A DNA stretch of 64,000 bases, from the NCBI GenBank assembly GCA_013373375.1, contig JABXHY010000032.1, positions 1 to 64,000 of the forward strand, read 5' to 3'. Below the pieces are notes generated by a model, which saw only the letters and a program-made list of their open reading frames with translations, was not told where the DNA came from and made no database searches. The translations under genes and the position numbers were made by a program. Every line of letters begins with the position of its first letter. Position 1 is the first letter of the stretch. This DNA comes from Gammaproteobacteria bacterium. Lineage in GTDB: Bacteria > Pseudomonadota > Gammaproteobacteria > Enterobacterales > Kangiellaceae. Positions 40,783 to 52,675 of this stretch are shown one piece after another.

Positions 40783-41148
40783 ATGAGTATAGATGACCTT
40801 TATTCCTATTCAGATGAAGCGCTCTGCGGCGAGTTATTTGAGCGCTTAGAGAAAGTAAGGTTAAGTAAAAATATTAGCCAAAAGTCCATAGCGGACGAAG
40901 TCGGTATCACTCCCGTTACTTACCGGAACATTAAATCCGGTAATGCGAAATTGGTGACATTCATAGCCGTGATGAGAACATTAGACAAACTTGAGCAGTT
41001 GGATAACCTGTTGCCCGATGAGCCACTGAGTCCGATTCAACTCGCTAAACGGCAAGGAAAAAGCCGTCAACGTGCGAGAGGAAAACTGGACGTGAGCAAT
41101 GAAATAAACGATACCGATCAGTCTGATAGCAAAGAGCTCGATTGGTAA
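40783..41148 (+). CDS. hipB: HipB-like antitoxin, XRE-family transcriptional regulator
   Basis: 121 aa. Helix-turn-helix of the Cro/CI type around residues 25-70 (SKNISQKSIADEVGITPVTY, RNIKSGNAKLVTFIAVMRTL), then a linker and basic/acidic tail (QGKSRQRARGKL, QSDSKELDW). One base separates its stop from the kinase gene. Expected to bind the upstream operator repeats together with HipA. Confidence 0.85.
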   Translation: MSIDDLYSYSDEALCGELFERLEKVRLSKNISQKSIADEVGITPVTYRNIKSGNAKLVTFIAVMRTLDKLEQLDNLLPDEPLSPIQLAKRQGKSRQRARGKLDVSNEINDTDQSDSKELDW

Positions 41149-41149
41149 G

Positions 41150-42538
41150 ATGGCCATTAAACCCAACACTTCCGTTTTATCGAGTATAAAACGACACACA
41201 GCAGCCGAAGTTTTCTTTCAGGATCAATTTGTCGGTGCTGTTGCTTATTCACCTGGTGACGCTTACTCGTCAGGTGAAAAAATTGCGACCTTTGAATACG
41301 ATGCCGTTTGGCGAGACTCAGGAATTGAACTCTCCCCTATTACTATGCCGCTTTCCGAAAAAAAATATCAATTTCCGAGTCTACCAGAAGCTACATTCAA
41401 AGGATTACCAGGAATGTTGGCAGATTGTTTACCCGACGATTTTGGCAATGCAGTAATTAACGCTTGGTTGGCGAGAGAAAATCGACCGTCCAATTCCTTT
41501 AGTGCAATTGAGCGACTACTTTATACAGGACAACGAGGTATGGGTGCTCTCGAATTTAAACCCACGCTTGGCACTCGAATTCGAACACCTAAGTCAATTC
41601 ATCTCGACGCTTTAATTGAAATGGCTCAACAGGTTTTGGACAACCGTCAAACCATAAAAGGTGATTTACAAAGCGACAAAGATGAAGCATTAAAAGAAAT
41701 TTTATTGGTTGGTACTTCCGCCGGAGGAGCAAGACCTAAAGCGGTTGTTGCAATCGATAAACAACAAACCAAAATATTAAGTGGTCAGGTGACTGTACCC
41801 GAAGGGTTCACGCATTACCTTTTAAAATTTGATGGCGTGGTTACCCGAAACCAAGGCCAGGAAACTTTTGGCGATCCCGCTGGGTTTGGCCGCATGGAAT
41901 ACGCTTATTATTTAATGGCAAAGGATGCTGGAATTAATATGATGCCATCCTTCATTTTGGAAGATGGCAATCTTGCTCACTTTGTCACAGAGCGTTTTGA
42001 CCGTATCGGTAATCAAAAACGACACATTCAATCCTTATGCGGATTTGTACATGCCGATTACAAGCAGCCCGGCCTTTATTCATATGAAGAATTATTTCAG
42101 TTAATGCGTCGATTAAAACTACGTCGCTCTGATGCGCTACAGATGTTTCGTCGTATGGCATTCAATGTCATCGCTCGTAATCACGATGATCACACTAAAA
42201 ATTTCGCCTTTATACTTAATCCGACTCAACAATCAAAAAATTTAATAGAGCAACAACTGACCTGGAACCTTGCGCCCGCTTTTGATGTTGCTTTTAGTTA
42301 CAAGCCAGGCTCTCCCTGGGTAAATTCTCATCAAATGACTATTAATGGCAAGCGAGACGATTTTACCAAAGACGATTTAATTGGTGTTGTACCAAACTCA
42401 TTAAGAAACGATGTCTCTGACATACTCGAAGAGGTTATTGATGTGGTGAGCGACTGGCCTAAATATTCAAAACAAGCCGGTGTGTTTTCTGAATTAGATA
42501 CCTTCATAAAACAGAGTCATAGAACCAATATCAAATAA
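41150..42538 (+). CDS. hipA: HipA-like Ser/Thr kinase toxin
   Basis: 462 aa, slightly longer than E. coli HipA (440). N-terminal HipA-N domain (AEVFFQDQFVGAVAYSPGDA, LSPITMPLS, LPGMLADCLPDDFGNAVINA). P-loop-like VGTSAGGARPKA, including the serine of the activation loop. Kinase core FVTERFDR, NVIARNHDDHTKNFAFIL with the catalytic Asp and metal-binding residues intact, then APAFDVAFSYKPG. HipA phosphorylates tRNA synthetases (GltX) in E. coli. Substrates of this group vary. No sign of disruption. Confidence 0.92.
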   Translation: MAIKPNTSVLSSIKRHTAAEVFFQDQFVGAVAYSPGDAYSSGEKIATFEYDAVWRDSGIELSPITMPLSEKKYQFPSLPEATFKGLPGMLADCLPDDFGNAVINAWLARENRPSNSFSAIERLLYTGQRGMGALEFKPTLGTRIRTPKSIHLDALIEMAQQVLDNRQTIKGDLQSDKDEALKEILLVGTSAGGARPKAVVAIDKQQTKILSGQVTVPEGFTHYLLKFDGVVTRNQGQETFGDPAGFGRMEYAYYLMAKDAGINMMPSFILEDGNLAHFVTERFDRIGNQKRHIQSLCGFVHADYKQPGLYSYEELFQLMRRLKLRRSDALQMFRRMAFNVIARNHDDHTKNFAFILNPTQQSKNLIEQQLTWNLAPAFDVAFSYKPGSPWVNSHQMTINGKRDDFTKDDLIGVVPNSLRNDVSDILEEVIDVVSDWPKYSKQAGVFSELDTFIKQSHRTNIK

Positions 42539-42640: not shown

Positions 42641-44839
42641 TTAATCCGCGTAATAAAAATTACCTCCCCAAACAAAAGGTGTCGATCCTGCTGGAGCCGT
42701 TCCTATGTAACAGTGAGCACCGTCGTATGATCCATCAATACAACTCGGTGAGCTTGAATCAGCTGTTGTATAAAAATTGCCATCGTAAATAAAAGCCGTT
42801 GTTCCCGCTGGCGCAGAAGCAATATAACAATTTGCTGAATCATTAGTTCCAACTGAACACGCATCATAGGTGGTATAGAAATTATTAGCATAAATAAAAC
42901 CACCTGCTGGTTTTGGCATTACAAAACAATTTGCACCATCAAACCAACCCAAAGGACATACATTTCCAGGTAACGGTGTTGTGTAGAAATTATTACTGTA
43001 GATGAAAGCCGTTGTTCCCGATGGCGCGGATGATATGTAGCAATTTGCTGAATCGTTAGTACCGATCGAACATGCATCGTAAGTGGTGTAAAAATTATTT
43101 GAATAAATAAAACCACCAGCAGGCATAGGCATTACATAACAATTCGCACCATCGTAACTTCCTAGTGGGCATGATGTAAAAGAAGCATCAATATAATAAT
43201 TCCCTGCGTAAACAAATGGATTTGTTGCACCGGATGGAACCGACATTACAAAACAATTGGCAGAGTCAAACCAGGGATTTATTTGTGATCCGTCGTGATA
43301 TGCGACAGGTTGATGACAAGCTTCTCTCCAGTATGCCAATAAATTAGGAGAACCAGCACCGATACTGCTTAGTTGACCCGTTGTGGCATCCGATAAAATA
43401 CTCGCCATAACAGTTGCAGGCGTAGAGAAAGGATTATTCTGTAAAAACAATGCAACGATTCCAGCAACGTGAGGTGACGCCATTGAGGTACCGTTTAAAG
43501 ATCTCGAGCCATTAGTGGTTCCGGCCCTTGCAGATATAATGTCTGAGCCAGGTGCAAATACGTCAACACAAGAACCAAAGTTAGAATAAGACGCTCGGTC
43601 ATCGTCAATTTCAGTCGCACCAACGGTTATCGCATTGTTTACTCTTGCTGGAGAATAATTACAGGCATTCGCACTGCTATTTCCTGCTGCTACCACATAA
43701 GAGTATCCGGCATTAATTGAGTCATTAACTGCAGCATCAATTGCGTTTGATGCCGAGCCACCAAGACTCATGTTAACAACCGCAGGTGCGGTTCCATTAT
43801 TGGTCACCCAGTTAATCGCAGCAACTATGGTCGAAGTCGTTGCTCCGCCAGAACAACCAAATACACGCACAGGAATGACAGTTGCTTGCTTCGCGATTCC
43901 GAATTGTGTGCCTGCGACCGTACCAGCAACGTGTGTGCCATGACCATTACAGTCTGCATTAAATGCTCCTGAAACAAAGCTAGCGCCAGCGCCGATTCTT
44001 CCTGTGAAATCAGAGTGATTTCCGTCAACACCTGAATCAATAATGTAAGCATTGACCCCAGTTCCAGTTGATAAATAGGTCCAACGAGAATCGAGTGTTA
44101 AAGGTCGCTCATCAACACGGTCTAGTCCCCATGATGGCGCAGGATTTTGAATGGTGTACATTTCAACATAGCCATCTTTTTCGACACTGGCGATATTGCT
44201 GTCTTCCATCATAGATTGCACCGACTCTAATGGCATTACAGCGCTGAATCCTTTGTAAACTGCATCATAAATATAATGAATCTTTGCATCGTATTGTTCA
44301 GCTAGAGCAGCGGATAATTTCTTTACGTCAGAGGCTGATTGTCGGCGAATGGACAATTTAACCATGTATCGATTGGGTACGACCGTTGATGACGCGCAAA
44401 CCTTTGATGATTCCAGTCTATTTTCTGCGCATATTTTCCATTCTTTGGTTTCATTTTGCAGCACTTTATTGGCATTAAATAATGTTGCGCCATTAGCGCT
44501 TAATGTAAGAGTCGTCTCTAAATAGGACGGTCTTTCATTGCCGTTTAAATATACCTGAATATTCGAAAAGTCTTGCTCACCAGTCTCTGCTAACTCTTTC
44601 AAAAGTGCATCGAGAGGAAGTTCTCTCCCTTGCTTTTGATAGGAAAAAGAGGACACTGGCGCAACCCATTTATCATCGAGTAAAATAGCGTACGGTTTAT
44701 CTGCTACAGTATCTTGAGATATGGGGACGGGTTCTTTGTTCAATTCCTTTGTTATTAAATTAGAACTTTCCACCGATTGCGCTGCCGCAGATGACAGCCC
44801 TAGCGTGATAGCTATCAACTTTAAATAATTACTGCTCAT
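42641..44839 (-). CDS. Subtilisin-like (S8, proteinase K type) protease with six C-terminal repeats
   Basis: 732 aa. Signal peptide, a long propeptide (about 25-230) including an I9-like inhibitor (NRYMVKLSIRRQSASDVKKL). Catalytic triad Asp268 (YIIDSGVDG), His300 (NGHGTHVAG), Ser452 (NGTSMASPHVAG), with Asn387 (AAGNSS) at the oxyanion hole. From about 520 to the end there are six ~34-residue units of the form C..G..D.ANC(Y/F)V....AG...FIY.NNFYTT. Units 2+3 and 4+5 are duplicates of each other. Each unit has two Cys and many aromatics, perhaps for binding polymer or cell surface. Extracellular protease. Confidence 0.93.
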   Translation of the reverse strand: MSSNYLKLIAITLGLSSAAAQSVESSNLITKELNKEPVPISQDTVADKPYAILLDDKWVAPVSSFSYQKQGRELPLDALLKELAETGEQDFSNIQVYLNGNERPSYLETTLTLSANGATLFNANKVLQNETKEWKICAENRLESSKVCASSTVVPNRYMVKLSIRRQSASDVKKLSAALAEQYDAKIHYIYDAVYKGFSAVMPLESVQSMMEDSNIASVEKDGYVEMYTIQNPAPSWGLDRVDERPLTLDSRWTYLSTGTGVNAYIIDSGVDGNHSDFTGRIGAGASFVSGAFNADCNGHGTHVAGTVAGTQFGIAKQATVIPVRVFGCSGGATTSTIVAAINWVTNNGTAPAVVNMSLGGSASNAIDAAVNDSINAGYSYVVAAGNSSANACNYSPARVNNAITVGATEIDDDRASYSNFGSCVDVFAPGSDIISARAGTTNGSRSLNGTSMASPHVAGIVALFLQNNPFSTPATVMASILSDATTGQLSSIGAGSPNLLAYWREACHQPVAYHDGSQINPWFDSANCFVMSVPSGATNPFVYAGNYYIDASFTSCPLGSYDGANCYVMPMPAGGFIYSNNFYTTYDACSIGTNDSANCYISSAPSGTTAFIYSNNFYTTPLPGNVCPLGWFDGANCFVMPKPAGGFIYANNFYTTYDACSVGTNDSANCYIASAPAGTTAFIYDGNFYTTADSSSPSCIDGSYDGAHCYIGTAPAGSTPFVWGGNFYYAD
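42743..43171 (-). repeat. Duplicated two-unit block in protease C-terminus
   Basis: Residues 557-627 and 628-699 are close copies: CPLG(S/W)(Y/F)DGANC plus MP(M/K)PAGGFIY(S/A)NNFY, then CS(I/V)GTNDSANCYI(S/A)SAP. The DNA is also similar, indicating recent tandem duplication of about 214 bases. Confidence 0.8.
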
Positions 44840-45213: not shown

Positions 45214-46392
45214 TCATTCAATAAAATTAATTGCTTCATCGAGTCCATTTATTAACGTATCCAATTGATCAGTGGTGTGATTTGCTGTGACATGAACTCG
45301 AATAAGAGATTCCCCTTCTGGTGTGTTTGGATAGCATAAACCGCTCGCCAAAATATTATGCTCAAATAAATACTCGACCATCTTTTGAGCTCTGAGAGTG
45401 CTACCCACTTTTATACTTACCATTGGATGCTCATTAACCACCATAGGTAAATCTTTGAGCTTTAAATTATCTTTCAAGTATTTCGCATTGTCGTGAAGCC
45501 TACCCATACTTCCACCGTCACGATCTAATATCTCAATTGCTTTTAAGGTTACTGCTGCATTTATGGGCGAAATTGGTTCCGATAAAAAATAGGGTCTGGC
45601 GGTTTGTCGAAGCCAATTAATAAGCGTACGATCACCCCCGATAAATCCACCGCCAACATTGCCTAACGCGTAGGCAAATGAACCAGTAACCAAATCTTGT
45701 TTATCCTGGATGTCGAGTTTACTGAATAAACCTCTTCCTTTTTCCCCTAATATACCGAGTCCCATGCTGTCATCAACCACAGTGATTGCATCATAAGTAC
45801 TTTTATATTCCTGAATACGTTCTAATTCAGCAAGTTCACCACTGGAATTAAATACGGAATCTGTAACAATTAACCGAAATCGAGCGTTCAACGAGCATTT
45901 TAAATGGTATTCTAAATTTTCATTGTCTCTATTCTTATAAAATACTGATTTCGCATTAGAAAACCGAATACCATCAATGAATGAAAGGTTGGACATTTCA
46001 TCAATAAACACAACATCTCGATTACTTGTTAATGGTTCAAATATGCTTGCGTTTGCACTGTAGACTGAAGGAAAAACCATGCAATCTTCTAAGAATAAGA
46101 AGTCACACAAGGCTGATTCAAGCTCTTTATAAACATCGAGTGTTCCAATAAAGGTTCTTGCAGAAGTATTCCCAGTTCCATATTTTGCTAAAGCCTCTTC
46201 TGCAGCACTTTTTAGCTCTTCATTACCACGCCAACCTAAAAAATCATTATCAATAAAGTTAAGTGCTTGACGAACACCAAAGTCCGCTTGCATATCCTTA
46301 TTTTGGGTGACGGGTAGCTCGTAACGTAAAAGTCCAGCGGCATCCATATTAGCCATTTCCTTAGCAAATAGCTTTTTCATTTTAGAAGACAT
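45214..46392 (-). CDS. Alpha-oxoamine synthase homologue lacking the PLP lysine (likely pseudoenzyme)
   Basis: 392 aa. Aligns throughout with KBL/BioF/SPT-type class II aminotransferase fold enzymes: NFIDNDFLGWRGNEEL, TGNTSARTFIGTLDVYKELE, VVDDSMGLGILGEKGRG, SLIRVHVTANHT. But key cofactor residues are changed. The Schiff-base Lys (KBL 'TGTLGKALGG') is Tyr241 here (TGSFAYALGN). The His of 'DDSHAVG' is Met210. The His of 'LNHASIIDG' is Asn135 (MSNLSFIDG). Asn49 (NDFLG) and the C-terminal Arg are kept. The fold is preserved without frameshifts, as in the LCB1 subunit of serine palmitoyltransferase, suggesting a structural or regulatory role. Last gene of a six-gene operon. Confidence 0.88.
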   Translation of the reverse strand: MSSKMKKLFAKEMANMDAAGLLRYELPVTQNKDMQADFGVRQALNFIDNDFLGWRGNEELKSAAEEALAKYGTGNTSARTFIGTLDVYKELESALCDFLFLEDCMVFPSVYSANASIFEPLTSNRDVVFIDEMSNLSFIDGIRFSNAKSVFYKNRDNENLEYHLKCSLNARFRLIVTDSVFNSSGELAELERIQEYKSTYDAITVVDDSMGLGILGEKGRGLFSKLDIQDKQDLVTGSFAYALGNVGGGFIGGDRTLINWLRQTARPYFLSEPISPINAAVTLKAIEILDRDGGSMGRLHDNAKYLKDNLKLKDLPMVVNEHPMVSIKVGSTLRAQKMVEYLFEHNILASGLCYPNTPEGESLIRVHVTANHTTDQLDTLINGLDEAINFIE

Positions 46393-46407
46393 AACACCCC
46401 TACTCCT

Positions 46408-47004
46408 TCACCTTGATGTACCTAAAAACCAAATGATAGCGCTGGTACAATACTGCCAAGACAAGCTTTGTTGATTGGTATACTGCAGGCAAAAAGAATC
46501 CAGGTTTTCTGCCATACATCGATTATTGTCATACTCACATGACGTTTGTGCGGTTAAAGCAAATTGAGTAACTAAACGAGAATATTTTTGCTCGAGCTTA
46601 TTTAATATAACCTGACGCCTATCACCGACACTGTTTTTGAGAATGCGATACCGTTCTTTTCTCGGTATAAATACATTTTCACTTAACTTATTAGCGACAA
46701 TAATATCGGAATACAGCTCACAATAGTTTCTTTGTTCCGCTTGTCTAAGACTCTTACAATTATCAATGGCGTACTGAATTAAACACTGTGTGCGTAAGCT
46801 TGATAAACTAGAAGAGCAATTATTACGATCGACAACGTTGATGTAGCTATGTACATTAAAAATATCTTGAAGCTTGGCCGAATTAATCGCTAACAAGACA
46901 CTGTTTATATACTCAATCCGATTTTCCTTATTGTAAGGTTGTTCAGTCGCGAATAAATTCAGGCCGTAGAGCAAAAACAAAGCGTAAAAATAATGTCTCA
47001 TCAT
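46408..47004 (-). CDS. Small secreted protein with conserved cysteines
   Basis: 198 aa. Signal peptide (MMRHYFYALFLLYGLNLFATE). The mature protein is helical with about eight Cys (NNCSSS, TQCLIQ, DNCKSL, NYCELY, TSCEYD, RCMAEN, SFCLQY, QYCTSA), likely all paired. This resembles small periplasmic helical cysteine-rich proteins. Start overlaps the upstream gene's stop by 4 bases. No family recognised. Confidence 0.75.
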   Translation of the reverse strand: MMRHYFYALFLLYGLNLFATEQPYNKENRIEYINSVLLAINSAKLQDIFNVHSYINVVDRNNCSSSLSSLRTQCLIQYAIDNCKSLRQAEQRNYCELYSDIIVANKLSENVFIPRKERYRILKNSVGDRRQVILNKLEQKYSRLVTQFALTAQTSCEYDNNRCMAENLDSFCLQYTNQQSLSWQYCTSAIIWFLGTSR

Positions 47005-48836
47005 AACCGACCATGCTCCTTTTCGTACTCAGTGCGAAATTTTTCAACATAGTTTTTCAGATGAACATGATAGGGATAAACTTCCAGCAAATCATCACGC
47101 TTTAATACCCATTCATTTCCCAAAAAGACATCAATGTTTTTTAGAACCTCGAGTCGAGACATTAAATAATTAGGTTGAGCTAAGAAATCATTCTCACTTG
47201 CTGTCGCCTCTGGATCTCGATTTACACTGAGTTCGGACTGACTGTTATATTGAGTATAACGAAACTTATCTTCCATAAGACGTGATACTTGTTTATACAT
47301 TGCGATTTGTGAGTCTTCAGAACTATCCATGAAAGTCACATATCGAGTAGGCACTTCGAACTGAGTCCCTTGAATCACAACATTTTTCTTTTTTGTTGTG
47401 CTCTTTCCATTTGCTTTATTTACGAAGCACTGAAAACTGACAATTTCCTCTTTATCTCGAAGTTGTTGCTCGCTTTTGGCAATCTTACTTTTAGTGATCG
47501 GACCCTTCTCATTTTTCTTTTGCTCATTCAATAGCTTTGAATCGATACCTTCGTTGGTTGTATCAAGCTCGCTTTCAGGGGTTTCAAACTCTTTAAGCTT
47601 ATCGTCAAGCGCGAGTATTATCTTGGCTAAATCATGTCGCTTCATCACCAAATTGACTTCTTGATAAACTTTTTCAGTAGTAAGAAAGGTAATCGGATTT
47701 GTCGCTAGCTGGTCGCAAGCATCCTCGGCAGCATTCCAGTGAATGGTATACTCCTTACAAAAGCCAGCTGTAATGTTAACATTAGGATTAAACAATAATT
47801 GACCGTATGCATGTTGCATTTGCTGGCTGTATTTTCGTTCATCAGCATCTTCGACTGTTATAGTATTGGTTTGATTTTGGAACTGCTCTATACAGCGACT
47901 GGGCAATAGTATTTCTGCGAATTTATGATAAAGATCCGGTTCTGGATACGGCAAGTTAGTCCAGATATGATGCGATGCTCTTGGTGCGGCACTAATCGCA
48001 TATACTTGATAGTCTTTCAAGGGTTCTAACTGCTCTAATTGAGTATCGAATTTCTTTCGGATGTTCTTAACATCATTGCCCGAGAAAAATGCGACTGACA
48101 TTTCAACAAAATTCGTAATTTTTCGGCTAAAATAGTGAAAGTAAGGCTCATCTATACGTCTATCGGTACACACCTCTAACTTATCGACTTCAACTTTATT
48201 TGGCTCACACTCTCCGAGATTCTTTGCGTATCCGAGCTCAAAGGCTTTAAGAATTAAAGCACATCCTTCCTTCGGCTCAGTTTCTTCTAGCAACTCCAAT
48301 TTTTCTGGGCAAAAATCATCAGAGGACTGAGCTAAACTCTCAGGAAGTTCCGTAACCTCATCAAACCCTCGATTATCCAATGTTACCAAAGCAAGCAAGA
48401 AAAAAATCGAAACACTCAGTAGTCGACGTAAAAACAATGGGAGTTCTGATGCCTCTACTTTTGACAGGTAGCTGGTTGCGAAGGTTAAATTATTGGCCGT
48501 GAAGAAAATATTGGCTTCTCTCGGTATATTTTCTGGTCGCGTAAGATGAAAAATATAAGAACTTTTTCGATCCAGTTTCCAATATTTAAGAAATACCCAA
48601 CCAAGAATGAGCGCAAAAAACCCGAGAAAGAAACCTAAGGCTCCACTGAGGCTCTTTAAATAATCTAAGTTAAGTGCGTCAAAGTTGTACGCCATCAAAA
48701 CAAGCGATAAGAGAATTAAAATGATAGCAATAGAGTTCGCACCAATATTCAAATTGATGAAGTCAAAATTTCGGTCTTTAATTCGAACCAAAACCCGCTC
48801 TATATCAGTTCTCTTTTTTAAGAAGTAACGTTTCAT
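47001..48836 (-). CDS. Large membrane protein of unknown family (operon gene 4)
   Basis: 611 aa. Hydrophobic segments about 30-50 and 65-85 (SIAIILILLSLVLMAY, ALGFFLGFFALILGWVFL), and about 140-158 (LLSVSIFFLLALVTLD). A long region of about 450 residues follows, with Cys pairs (DDFCPEKL, EGCALIL, GECEPNK, EVCTDRR, SRCIEQF, GFCKEYT, DACDQLA, FQCFVNK). The presence of Cys suggests it faces the periplasm. A charged coil lies at 410-450. No known domain. Overlaps both neighbours by 4 bases, so it should be made in stoichiometric coupling with the MotB-like subunit. Confidence 0.8.
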   Translation of the reverse strand: MKRYFLKKRTDIERVLVRIKDRNFDFINLNIGANSIAIILILLSLVLMAYNFDALNLDYLKSLSGALGFFLGFFALILGWVFLKYWKLDRKSSYIFHLTRPENIPREANIFFTANNLTFATSYLSKVEASELPLFLRRLLSVSIFFLLALVTLDNRGFDEVTELPESLAQSSDDFCPEKLELLEETEPKEGCALILKAFELGYAKNLGECEPNKVEVDKLEVCTDRRIDEPYFHYFSRKITNFVEMSVAFFSGNDVKNIRKKFDTQLEQLEPLKDYQVYAISAAPRASHHIWTNLPYPEPDLYHKFAEILLPSRCIEQFQNQTNTITVEDADERKYSQQMQHAYGQLLFNPNVNITAGFCKEYTIHWNAAEDACDQLATNPITFLTTEKVYQEVNLVMKRHDLAKIILALDDKLKEFETPESELDTTNEGIDSKLLNEQKKNEKGPITKSKIAKSEQQLRDKEEIVSFQCFVNKANGKSTTKKKNVVIQGTQFEVPTRYVTFMDSSEDSQIAMYKQVSRLMEDKFRYTQYNSQSELSVNRDPEATASENDFLAQPNYLMSRLEVLKNIDVFLGNEWVLKRDDLLEVYPYHVHLKNYVEKFRTEYEKEHGRL

Positions 48837-49432
48837 TCGTTCTCGAAATTATTAATGATTTTATCTTCGATGGTAATTCGTCGATTTTTGGATTTAGCTG
48901 CCCTTAGAATTTCGCGTTGAGCCTTAGAGATCTTACCTTCAAAATCGGGTACCTCCTGTACCGAGGTATTATCAGCGTGCGTACAGATGACTACGTGATC
49001 GGAAATATCGTTACTGTAATTTTTCAGCTCTTCATAAGCGGCATAAGCTCTTCGATAACCTAGGTTGAAATTTCTTTCTTTTTGCCCATCGCCATCCGTA
49101 TGACCATGAATAATTAACATTCTTTTTGTTAAACCATCTGTTTCAAAATTCAGGACTTGTCCGGTTTCATCGTAAAATAATTCATTAAATACCTCTTTTC
49201 CTTCCTCAGAGATACGATCTTTTCCCGGCGCGAATAAAACGTCACCAGGAAGATTTAACATTCGCGCTGTAACGTCACCTATTGTCTCACTTACACCGAT
49301 ATCTTTGCCTTGATTGAGCGACCAAAGAATAACGAAAAAAACCATGATTATGGTCATTAAGTCAGTATAAATAACCTGCCAAGCTGCAGCCCCGGAGTTT
49401 TTAACTCTTGTAGGTTTCGCAAAACTTTTCAT
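48833..49432 (-). CDS. MotB/OmpA-type stator subunit
   Basis: 199 aa from ATG 49432, which overlaps the upstream TAA by one base (TAATG). The frame extends to 49486, but that part overlaps the previous gene. One TM helix near residues 18-38 with the essential acidic residue: WQVIYTDLMTIIMVFFVILW, Asp at the position of MotB Asp32. The periplasmic OmpA-like domain has LFAPGKDRISEEGKEV, IIHGHTDGDGQKERNFNLGY, RRAYAAYEEL and a final KSKNRRI, matching the peptidoglycan-binding HTD...N...RA...NRR pattern. It should anchor the complex to the cell wall and form the ion path with the MotA-like partner. Confidence 0.9.
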   Translation of the reverse strand: MKSFAKPTRVKNSGAAAWQVIYTDLMTIIMVFFVILWSLNQGKDIGVSETIGDVTARMLNLPGDVLFAPGKDRISEEGKEVFNELFYDETGQVLNFETDGLTKRMLIIHGHTDGDGQKERNFNLGYRRAYAAYEELKNYSNDISDHVVICTHADNTSVQEVPDFEGKISKAQREILRAAKSKNRRITIEDKIINNFENE

Positions 49433-50385
49433 TACTCTACCCGAATAGTATTTTTGTTTTCGACGACAACCTGCAAGGCTCGACAAAATGTATCGTAATC
49501 ATAATCAAGGTCAACCATACGACGTTCAAAGCGAGTCCCAATAATTCTATATAAGGAAGAAAATATCGCTCCGTATAATGTCGTTTTCAAAGCAAGTGCT
49601 AGTTGAGGAGAAAGCGATTCCACCGTTACGTCGGACCCAAGACTGTCAAACATGGTAATCAAACCGATTATGGTTCCGATTAATCCAAATAATGGCATTG
49701 CACTGGATACAAAATCAAAATTTGAACTTGATGACTCATATAACTCGTGACACTCGACATAATAAGAGTGAGCAACAAATTCGGCGTAATCGAAATTCTT
49801 TCCCGATGAAACCACTTCTTGAATATCGCGACTAAGTGAGTTATCCGGTAAGCCAATCGGTCTACCTTCTTCGACCAAACCCACCGCAATACTGCCATCA
49901 CGTCCTCTTTGTATGTTAAGTAAATTTTGCAAAGCAACTAATGTTTCCTGCATGTTCGATGCTTTACTGTTTAAATGCTTAGAGGAGAAGAAAATAATAA
50001 ACGATGAGAACATTAACTTAATAAGCCCAAGCCCAGTTACGTAAATCAACAGCCCTATGGAAATTGTAAACATGGAGATAAAGTAATTTTCTGTGATAAA
50101 AAATACGGACGCCACGACCAACATGATTCCAAAACCTATTAATCCGGCAAATCCGGCTCCAGCAGACGATTGCTTTACCGCTCGGGTGGTCTTATTAAAA
50201 GACGGATAATAAGTATCTTCTTCCTTTGCCTCCGCTTTATCTTGCGGCAAATACTCACCTGTCATTTCTCCATATTCAGGTTCATGATTCTGGTCATTCT
50301 CTTGATCGATAGCTTTCCCTTGATCAATTCGATTTTCATGATCACTTCCATTCCCATGCTCATTCTCATGCTTATCATTGCTCAT
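49432..50385 (-). CDS. MotA/TolQ/ExbB-type proton-channel subunit
   Basis: 317 aa. A Asn/His/Glu-rich hydrophilic N-terminus (1-60, SNDKHENEHGNGSDHENRID) is unusual. Two TM helices about 78-98 and 105-130. A cytoplasmic loop (135-215) follows. Then two more helices: SSAMPLFGLIGTIIGLITMF and LALALKTTLYGAIFSSLYRI, the conserved 'P..GllGTv.Gl...f' and 'al.tTl.Gl' motifs of the MotA/TolQ/ExbB superfamily. Start overlaps the preceding gene by 11 bases. Together with the OmpA-type protein it should form an ion-driven rotary or torque unit. Confidence 0.9.
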   Translation of the reverse strand: MSNDKHENEHGNGSDHENRIDQGKAIDQENDQNHEPEYGEMTGEYLPQDKAEAKEEDTYYPSFNKTTRAVKQSSAGAGFAGLIGFGIMLVVASVFFITENYFISMFTISIGLLIYVTGLGLIKLMFSSFIIFFSSKHLNSKASNMQETLVALQNLLNIQRGRDGSIAVGLVEEGRPIGLPDNSLSRDIQEVVSSGKNFDYAEFVAHSYYVECHELYESSSSNFDFVSSAMPLFGLIGTIIGLITMFDSLGSDVTVESLSPQLALALKTTLYGAIFSSLYRIIGTRFERRMVDLDYDYDTFCRALQVVVENKNTIRVE

Positions 50386-52675
50386 TATTTTCGCTCTCTT
50401 CTTTTATCTCTTCTTCTTTACCTTCGTCGTTCGCTTTTTCTATCGCTTCACGAATAGCCTGTTTCTCTTGTTCAATGATCGAAATGTACCGATCATTATA
50501 TTGATAAGCATCATAGCCAATCCATCCGAATACACTGATGACACTTATAGAAAATAGTAACTTAAAATAAAACCGTAATCTGGGGCTCTTTCGCTCACTC
50601 ATCGGGTGCACACAAAACATTGAGAGCCATACTATTCGATCACATTCATCGGTTCTAAAAAACTTTCGCTTACGCTCATCAAGCATTTTGTTAACTTCAG
50701 TAAATATTTTATCCTGACTTTCAAGTATTAAATGAGATAAGCGACGAGAGGTTATAAATCCTTTGTTTCGGGTCATCTGGAAATACAGGTGTTGAATTAG
50801 GTGATGCAAACCAAAGTTAAGAACAACAAACGTATCCGCTATCCTAGAAAAGTATTTTGATAACACAAAGTTGTATGATTTTTTCTTAGCACCCACTTTA
50901 TAACGAAAGTAAAAATAAAAGGTAGTAAACACGTGCTCGTGCCTTAATAGACCGCCAAGCTTTTGCAGAATAATCCCAAATAAAAAGTCTTTATCATCGA
51001 GACTTGAGTCGTCTACCTCTGCGTCCTCGTCGTATGGTGCATTATATTGAGCGTCCTCAAGTAACAGGGCTTCAACGATTTGCATATCATCAAAATTGTC
51101 CGACATTAAAGATGGTAAGTCATCTTGAGGCTCAAACTCAGGATAGATAATACCTTTCGCATTTCGACTTTTAGCTTCCAATGAAGCTTTTCTGTGGTTA
51201 ACATTATCCGAATAAAACTCAGACATTCTTTCAAGCGCAGTATTTCTTTTCGAGTCACTCATCGAAAACAAACTTTTCTTTTTTTGCTCCAAATTTAAGT
51301 TTGGCTGTAAAGAAAATGCATTAGCATAACGATAAACAGGCTTAACCAGTTTTTTCACATAATCTCTGGCGATCGCTAAATCAATCAACTCCTTTTCGAT
51401 TACGATACGAGGTCTTGTCAATCCTCCTGCATAACTCATAACACCTTTATTTTTTCCTGGTATGAATACTACGTCATCTACCAGTTGTTTATTGAGCGTC
51501 ACGCCATTTCTTTTTAAGTATCCAATCAGGTACCGTTTTACTTTGATATGAGTTAAGGAATTATAATCGAGGTGCCCGTCGACCAACTTAACATCCAAAC
51601 TCATCGCAAACACATCCAGCAGTAAACCGATCCAATAACAAATTAAAAGGCCTGCTGTTGGTAAAACGAAAATAACAATAGTCTCATTACTAATACCCAT
51701 ATCTTTAGAGTAAGTATAAATGCCATAAAAATACGCTGTAAAAAGTAATCCAATAAACAAAAGCTTAATAACAAAGGTTACAAAAAACGCTTTAATCACT
51801 GGGAATAAAGCATTTTGCTTAATACGCTCAATACCCTGTAAATGAGGCACCACAATTTGGAATATTAGAATTAAAAAGTAAGCCCAAATACATCCACCAA
51901 GAATGGTAATTAACCACCAGTAGGTTTCGGTTAATGGCATCACAGCATTGATAATTTGACTAAAGTTTATGTAGTTTTTTGCGATCGGATAACTTAAAAC
52001 TAAGAGACAAACTAAAAGGTAAGGATAAAAATATCGCCGAATGATCTGTTTTCTTTCGGTATGTTTCCTTGGCTTACCTATAAATGTAAGCAAATAAGGA
52101 AAACAAATGAATAAAACCAGACCAATAAAAATCTCATTACTAAAATAGGCCGTAGAGACCGGTTGTTCTGATGTTTGTGCAACCGGAGTATCTTCAGTAT
52201 CGATTATACGATATTGCCTTTGCTCTAATATTCCGCCTTTCTCCAGAAAAGCCTGAAAAGCAGAGAAAGCTTCCATTCTTAATTTCAACATAGTCGTTGA
52301 GCGAACGGATATTGAGCCGGTTTCGACCAAGTTACCGGTTCGAACATCATAGACTCGATAATCAATGTAAGACTCCCCGACTTCACCAAGCATCAATGCA
52401 TCGATATTATCTTCGCGGTAGATATCGATCAGGCAACTGCTAGAGCGATTAACACAAGAAGCTTCTTTTTCGGACTTTATTATGGGTATAAATCGAGCAT
52501 AACCAGAAAGATCGTTGTATAAATTCTTTTCCAGTGCATTAACTAACCAGGACGGCTGTTGATCAACCGAGACAAAGCTAACCACATACTTGCCCTTAAC
52601 GACTTCTTCATTGGCATGAAGTGAGTTCGTTGCAATTATAAGGCTAGAGAGTAATATGAAGAATAAACGCAGCAA
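50375..52675 (-). CDS. Large membrane protein with TolB-N-like periplasmic domain (operon gene 1)
   Basis: 766 aa. Signal peptide to about 22. A periplasmic domain about 25-150 resembles TolB-N/CsgG-like folds: YVVSFVSVDQQPSWLVNALE, GYARFIPIIKSEKEASC, YREDNIDALMLGEVGESYID, YRVYDVRTGNLVETGSI. Then about five TM helices (about 180-355), a cytoplasmic region of some 350 residues (370-710) with no known domain, and a final TM helix near 715-735, with an acidic C-terminus. Heads the operon that continues with MotA- and MotB-like genes. It may be the platform that links ion flow to an unknown output. Confidence 0.8.
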   Translation of the reverse strand: MLRLFFILLSSLIIATNSLHANEEVVKGKYVVSFVSVDQQPSWLVNALEKNLYNDLSGYARFIPIIKSEKEASCVNRSSSCLIDIYREDNIDALMLGEVGESYIDYRVYDVRTGNLVETGSISVRSTTMLKLRMEAFSAFQAFLEKGGILEQRQYRIIDTEDTPVAQTSEQPVSTAYFSNEIFIGLVLFICFPYLLTFIGKPRKHTERKQIIRRYFYPYLLVCLLVLSYPIAKNYINFSQIINAVMPLTETYWWLITILGGCIWAYFLILIFQIVVPHLQGIERIKQNALFPVIKAFFVTFVIKLLFIGLLFTAYFYGIYTYSKDMGISNETIVIFVLPTAGLLICYWIGLLLDVFAMSLDVKLVDGHLDYNSLTHIKVKRYLIGYLKRNGVTLNKQLVDDVVFIPGKNKGVMSYAGGLTRPRIVIEKELIDLAIARDYVKKLVKPVYRYANAFSLQPNLNLEQKKKSLFSMSDSKRNTALERMSEFYSDNVNHRKASLEAKSRNAKGIIYPEFEPQDDLPSLMSDNFDDMQIVEALLLEDAQYNAPYDEDAEVDDSSLDDKDFLFGIILQKLGGLLRHEHVFTTFYFYFRYKVGAKKKSYNFVLSKYFSRIADTFVVLNFGLHHLIQHLYFQMTRNKGFITSRRLSHLILESQDKIFTEVNKMLDERKRKFFRTDECDRIVWLSMFCVHPMSERKSPRLRFYFKLLFSISVISVFGWIGYDAYQYNDRYISIIEQEKQAIREAIEKANDEGKEEEIKEESENNEQ

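Follow-up and report, generated by a model that had tools for sequence, protein, structure and literature searches.

A six-gene operon and its distribution

The stretch of DNA analysed here (the window; 64,000 nucleotides of contig JABXHY010000032.1, from a gammaproteobacterium of the Kangiellaceae) carries an operon of six genes, all of them on the minus strand and arranged head to tail between positions 45214 and 52675, in the order P1-MotA-MotB-P4-P5-P6. P1 (50375..52675, 766 amino acids from a TTG start) begins with a signal-peptide-like N end and a putative TolB-N-like domain with a conserved cysteine pair, followed by about five hydrophobic segments, a hydrophilic domain (residues ~360-700), a last hydrophobic segment and a short tail; a stretch of 411 bases upstream of it holds no called gene. 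MotA (49432..50385, 317 amino acids), the A subunit of a 5:2-type ion motor (Pfam MotA_ExbB), has no long tail and overlaps P1 by 11 bases. MotB (48833..49432, 199 amino acids) combines a channel Asp (in YTDLMT) with a MotB plug region and an OmpA-type domain; we read it from the ATG at 49432, which gives an overlap of 1 base with MotA, while the mechanical list of open reading frames (ORFs) begins it at a TTG at 49486. P4 (47001..48836, 611 amino acids), which belongs to no recognised family and overlaps MotB by 4 bases, consists of three hydrophobic segments and a large domain with eight invariant cysteines. P5 (46408..47004, 198 amino acids), likewise of no recognised family, overlaps P4 by 4 bases and has a signal-peptide-like start and eight conserved cysteines, six of them invariant. 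After a gap of 15 bases follows P6 (45214..46392, 392 amino acids), an apparent pseudoenzyme of the Kbl branch of the alpha-oxoamine synthases, in which no signal peptide was seen by eye.

An initial annotation of the window had placed six genes in this interval with exactly these junctions, and had described them as a single translationally coupled unit. The overlaps are real, and they suggest the coupling. In the operon region, promoter-like patterns (27 versus 25.8 in shuffles) and terminator-like patterns (6 versus 5.4) were not enriched, so that the argument for a single transcript comes from the overlaps alone.

The gene set was found in 17 loci, each in its own genome (the window, L009-L018, L036, L037, L045, L046, L083 and L084), with the order P1-MotA-MotB-P4-P5-P6 complete in 12 of them, which is far beyond chance. 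P1, MotA and MotB are present in all 17, and P4 and P5 in 16 of 16, since the contig of L014 ends within MotB. The remaining loci vary: L036 and L046 run from P1 to P5 with no adjoining P6; L037 has MotA-MotB-P4, then a P5-P1 fusion with P5 at the N end, and no P6 at the locus; and L018 has the order MotA-MotB-P4-P5-P1, its contig stopping just past P1. L018 and L014, the latter with only the beginning of MotB, stand outside any count of P6 presence or absence. Named hosts comprise an Ectothiorhodospiraceae metagenome-assembled genome (MAG), Pleionea sediminis (L011), Teredinibacter sp. ISS155 and a Pseudohongiella MAG; further host MAGs are labelled Bdellovibrionota, bacterium, Deltaproteobacteria, Proteobacteria and Oligoflexales. 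The genes flanking the operon differ from locus to locus. Co-occurrence extends beyond close strains, in Gammaproteobacteria and in more distant lineages, as the idea of a functional unit in the initial annotation had called for.

The operon is rare among the genomes sampled. P1 was present in 2 of 61 genomes (the window's own and its relatives) and in 2 of 369 genomes of the class, its own genome included. Profile searches recovered the operon in 3 of 58 genomes (one being the seed, with a fourth match lacking the operon), in 5 of 290 (three already known) and in 3 of 195 (one being the seed). A scan of GTDB r220 contigs with a three-row MotA alignment matched 116 stretches, nine of which encode a relative; all nine bear the operon within the limits of their contigs, and one of them (L011) was already known. 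A genome with a weak P1 match (G440, 9e-4) and no operon was excluded from the 17.

The MotA/MotB motor pair

The assignment of the two central genes to a stator-type pair, made in the initial annotation, holds throughout. In the window, Pfam matched MotA_ExbB (1.3e-15), MotB_plug (1e-8) and OmpA (5.3e-7). The channel Asp of MotB is conserved in 17 of 17 copies, as are a Pro and a Thr in the third transmembrane segment of the A subunit and one Thr in the fourth, the neighbour of which is kept in 15 of 17; these Thr and Pro residues presumably line the ion channel. In the 16 complete MotB copies, the Asp, Asn and Arg of the OmpA domain are always kept, and the distance from the channel Asp to the OmpA motif is always 85 or 86 residues. 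The single conserved cysteine of this domain, Cys150 (48983-48985 in the window, minus strand), is invariant in 16 of 16 and could form a bond with P1, P4 or P5.

Aligned as a single sequence, MotA matches PomA over positions 80-279, and this alignment suggests four transmembrane segments. Hydropathy averaged over the 17 copies gives a long stretch at 81-125, with room for two segments, and another at 231-246, with the fourth below threshold. The protein in the window ends about 45 residues past its KTTLYG motif, and the A-subunit frames, taken from stop to stop, measure 265-337 amino acids in 16 loci and 380 in L013. MotA, PomA and TolQ are the nearest solved chains. The NCBIfam models for PomA and MotP are the best matches for 15 of 15 A subunits, with the TolQ and ExbB models also matching all 15; the score against the flagellar model lies far under its curated cut-off (41.5 versus 341 bits). 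The ZorA2 model of PADLOC was matched weakly by 5 of 15 (best 8.8e-5), and the PADLOC ZorB models match MotB in its OmpA region (best 3e-11). The best solved match of MotB is 8qyd_F (E 1.1e-6), a chain labelled 'Membrane protein' that we take to be ZorB and that aligns over positions 6-40, the transmembrane region, only.

On the sister group of the A subunit among known motors, two trees built on a 76-column core disagree. In the first (59 rows), the 17 operon rows form one group (98/90) that joins flagellar-type rows (95/86). In the second (56 rows, without UNK_L110, GIT_L111 and GIT_L080), the operon rows are not one group and join Zorya-type rows (94/91), and the alternatives of joining flagellar rows (p 0.341) or TolQ/ExbB rows (p 0.321) are not rejected. 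Four rows without a recognisable core (FIT_L072, FIT_L104, ZOR_L148 and ZOR_L149) were dropped from these trees and two (L066 and L068) gave no match; the reference labels FIT, GIT and ZOR were assigned by us from search matches and sequence.

Partner proteins and the apparent pseudoenzyme P6

Neither P1, P4 nor P5 has a convincing Pfam family, the best E values in any member being 0.0018 for P1 (TolB_N), 0.027 for P4 and 0.0017 for P5 (an unrelated eukaryotic family), nor did profile searches find a solved relative in the PDB (best E 2, 0.3 and 0.67, respectively). The TolB-N-like character that the initial annotation had given to P1 is moderately supported for its N-terminal domain. Profile comparison with hhalign aligned P1 24-158 with TolB-N over 143 columns (E 2.7e-5), whereas seven unrelated profiles gave E values of 0.2-0.94. 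However, the hhalign probability is 49%, Pfam TolB_N is matched by only one of ten P1 members, and a TolB_N search of genomes returned one gene in each of 8 of 8 genomes and never P1. Relatedness of the P1 hydrophilic domain to M48 peptidases was considered and rejected by profile comparison (probability 0.03).

Conserved cysteines mark all three proteins, with two in P1 (16/16 and 15/16), eight in P4 (16/16, which together with its three hydrophobic segments bears out its earlier description as a Cys-rich protein with two to three transmembrane segments) and eight in P5. These fit an oxidising periplasm and, together with the P5-P1 fusion of L037, suggest that P5, the P1 N-domain and the large P4 domain lie on the periplasmic side. 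The hydrophilic P1 domain at ~360-700 is taken as cytosolic. The P5 profile has no likeness to P1 or P4 once the fused L037 ORF is removed (the overlong frames of L016, L083 and L084 were also left out); scores of 100% between P1 and P5 profiles were an artefact of that ORF. A short P1 in L046 (L046:9506-10252, 249 amino acids) keeps the N-domain, two hydrophobic segments and a YHPxY tail and has no cytosolic domain; since this locus also lacks P6, it hints that P6 works together with the P1 cytosolic domain.

The description of P6 as an oxoamine synthase homologue without a pyridoxal phosphate (PLP) lysine was confirmed. The protein has the Pfam aminotransferase fold (9.3e-35) and matches Kbl (glycine C-acetyltransferase) over its full length; among NCBIfam models, none of which reaches its cut-off, Kbl scores 5.9e-96 versus 1.5e-75 for the best serine palmitoyltransferase model. 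In the window copy, the Lys of the GTLGKALG motif is replaced by Tyr, and across 12 copies this position holds Tyr (5), His (3), Lys (2), Asn (1) or Asp (1). The PLP Lys and both active-site His occur together in 0 of 12 P6 copies, whereas other members of the family in the genomes searched have all three in 23 of 23 cases. An Asp conserved in 12 of 12 copies occupies the position that presumably faces the PLP nitrogen. Two copies (L016:6694-7995 and L045:7746-8939) have kept the PLP lysine and lost one active-site His, and are possible intermediates. Since different residues replace the lysine, catalysis appears to have been lost more than once, or the site to have drifted after its loss, with the fold retained; the place of P6 in the operon persists in 12 loci despite these differing losses.

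In a tree of 36 rows, the 12 copies share a branch with Kbl-type rows (100/99), as labelled by us from search matches and sequence, and are not shown to be one clade (3 changes); row L103 is the P6 of L009 again and is not among the 23 other members. When the Pseudohongiella genome G430 was searched with the P6 profile (E <= 0.001), P6 itself was the sole match, and no active partner of its family was thus found there. On the contig that carries the P. sediminis operon, an oxoamine-synthase domain lies within an open frame of 1229 amino acids (G001:C22:150134-151174).

A candidate envelope machine and its relation to known systems

We favour, with a confidence slightly better than even, the reading that the operon encodes an ion-driven machine that exerts force across the envelope and includes a periplasmic part rich in disulfides and, optionally, a pseudoenzyme module in the cytosol. 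The whole operon would then specify one inner-membrane machine powered by ion flow. MotA and MotB, judged by their families, would form a 5:2 rotary motor, which the OmpA domain of MotB would tie to the cell wall, close to the membrane and with constant spacing. P1, P4 and P5 might build a disulfide-stabilised periplasmic assembly that picks up the motion of the motor and transmits force into the envelope, and the P1 cytosolic domain together with P6 could serve as a docking or gating module in the cytosol that is absent in some lineages. The conserved residues make the motor part well supported, and its coupling to P1, P4 and P5 is what we infer. Several observations weigh against this proposal. 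The operon unit contains no outer-membrane partner, and topology and function are derived from sequence alone. L036 and L037 keep the P1 cytosolic domain yet have no P6 at the locus, so that a docking of P6 on P1 would not be strictly linked to that domain, and the two P6 copies that retain the PLP lysine (2 of 12, in L016 and L045) are not proven to be inactive.

The neighbourhoods of the operon bear on its possible functions. In BLAST comparisons between loci only two neighbour pairs recur, a GGDEF protein (window and L011) and a VWA protein whose C-terminal domain is of the ribosomal L7/L12 type (L010 and L013). The latter adjoins the operon in orientations that differ between the two loci (L010:7277-8821 and L013:15333-16979). 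Among 103 neighbouring proteins, which are part of all neighbours and include none from L083 or L084, Pfam assigns Response_reg to 5 and VWA to 3, the highest counts, and Phage_integrase to 2; the 25 commonest of the 151 families include no flagellar one. PADLOC matched 48 families at 1e-10, and none of the best 25 of these 48 was found in more than two of the 103 proteins. The strongest PADLOC defence matches fit one protein, a reverse transcriptase downstream of the operon (L010:9375-10796, RVT_1 9.1e-35). In the window, a HipA-type gene (40783-42538, plus strand, HipA_C 5.4e-47) follows a small helix-turn-helix-like gene that by eye resembles HipB, and is separated from the operon by one protease gene (42641-44839, minus strand), by eye a subtilisin-like secreted protease whose C-terminal repeats contain NCYVMP/NCYI and FIYxNNFYTT motifs. 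In G359 the operon is followed by a gene for a thiamine-diphosphate-type enzyme, acetolactate synthase-like by eye (L009:4690-6366, minus strand).

Among other explanations, a Zorya-like antiphage system, in which MotAB would sense envelope damage at phage entry and P6 or P1 would act as effector or relay, is unlikely. The ZorB matches of MotB, including that to 8qyd_F, the weak ZorA2 matches, the second A-subunit tree and the sparse distribution of the operon would suit such a system, as would the single neighbours that match defence models, among them the reverse transcriptase and the HipA-type gene. However, PADLOC gave no match for P1, P4, P5 or P6 at E <= 0.1, and hence no effector of the ZorC, ZorD or ZorE type; the A subunit is without a long tail, and the bulk of the extra protein mass seems periplasmic. 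Defence families among the neighbours are as scarce as described above, and mobile elements yielded no relatives: single-sequence searches found no match in plasmids (MotB and P4) or phages (MotB), nor did pattern scans of viral contigs for P4 or MotB.

That the operon supplies a second stator set, or generates torque for flagella or for some other apparatus of surface motility, we consider improbable. The PomA and MotP models match every A subunit searched, although the TolQ and ExbB models do as well; one of the two trees places the A subunits with flagellar-type rows, and FlhA-like genes occur in 16 of 17 host genomes (14 above cut-off), which leaves the exclusion of flagellar stators in the initial annotation less secure than its exclusion of Zorya and Tol-Pal, for which defining features were looked for and not found. 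Against a motility role stand the short and fixed spacing of MotB, the lack of flagellar families among the most frequent neighbours, a host MAG that bears the operon with no FlhA match (G433, which may be incomplete), and A-subunit genes elsewhere in several host genomes that look flagellar by our reading.

A lipid system in which P6 would be the inactive partner of a working oxoamine synthase, as LCB1/SPTLC1 is in eukaryotes, is very improbable, for although P6 belongs to the same superfamily and has lost its lysine as LCB1 has (PMC3794620, in the part available), it scores best with Kbl and groups with Kbl-type rows, G430 yielded no active partner, and neither recurring neighbour pair, GGDEF or VWA, is a lipid gene.

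The initial annotation had imagined an ion-driven machine acting on the envelope, on phage or on lipids; the envelope reading is the one we prefer, and nothing found favours phage or lipids over other envelope roles. The force-transmitting machine that we prefer would add to the few known jobs of 5:2 ion motors, namely swimming, gliding with type 9 secretion, Ton-dependent import, Tol-dependent envelope upkeep and Zorya defence; a unit that is conserved, keeps its motor intact and includes three families whose fold is unknown suggests such a further job. P6 would moreover show clearly, for bacteria, how an enzyme fold can lose its cofactor lysine, with various replacements, and be retained as a part of a motor. 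The operon offers a compact and testable gene set for these ideas.

As the initial annotation had supposed, the six genes match no named operon: Pfam, NCBIfam and PADLOC name just the motor pair and the enzyme fold, and among the open-access papers listed, some of them off-topic, no title or abstract opening describes such an operon. Each known system shares part of it. Tol-Pal has an ion motor and, putatively, a TolB-N-like domain in common with the operon, and comprises TolA, TolB and Pal. The A subunit of the operon is of the MotA type, each of the 8 genomes searched (8 of 8) has a TolB_N gene at another place, and within the operon Pfam found neither TolA nor Pal nor a full TolB. With the flagellar stators MotAB and PomAB the operon shares an A subunit of the MotA type, most of which can be aligned with PomA, and a B subunit that combines a channel Asp with a plug region and an OmpA domain, and differs from them in the short, fixed MotB spacing, the new partner families and scores far below curated cut-offs.

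Like ZorAB, the pair would be a motor with a B subunit of the peptidoglycan-binding type near the membrane (PMC11890865, in the part available), and the OmpA-type domain with its conserved Asp and Arg is predicted to bind peptidoglycan as that of ZorB does. Zorya, as the same part of that source describes it, is characterised by the ZorA tail together with ZorC and ZorD or with ZorE; the operon has none of these and instead carries P1, P4, P5 and P6. P6 shares its full-length sequence and a common branch with Kbl and differs from the alpha-oxoamine synthases in having lost the PLP Lys in 10 of 12 copies. The fold without a PLP lysine that LCB1/SPTLC1 retains as a subunit of a membrane complex (PMC3794620, in the same part) is also that of P6, with the difference that the best model of P6 is Kbl, not serine palmitoyltransferase, and that no active family partner was found in the one host searched, G430.

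In the accessible part of a 2025 survey, the B subunits of the non-flagellar group are without an OmpA-like domain and Zorya lies outside the phylogeny (PMC12505986); the MotB of the operon, in contrast to that group, has one. The systems named in a 2022 review of 5:2 motors are, in the part available, Mot, Exb, Tol, Agl and Gld (PMC9389320). We see an even chance that the operon represents an undescribed class of ion-driven rotary envelope machine, apart from Mot, Tol, Ton, Gld, Agl and Zorya, with three membrane and periplasmic proteins taking up the torque and a dead Kbl homologue acting as a cytosolic clutch or sensor.

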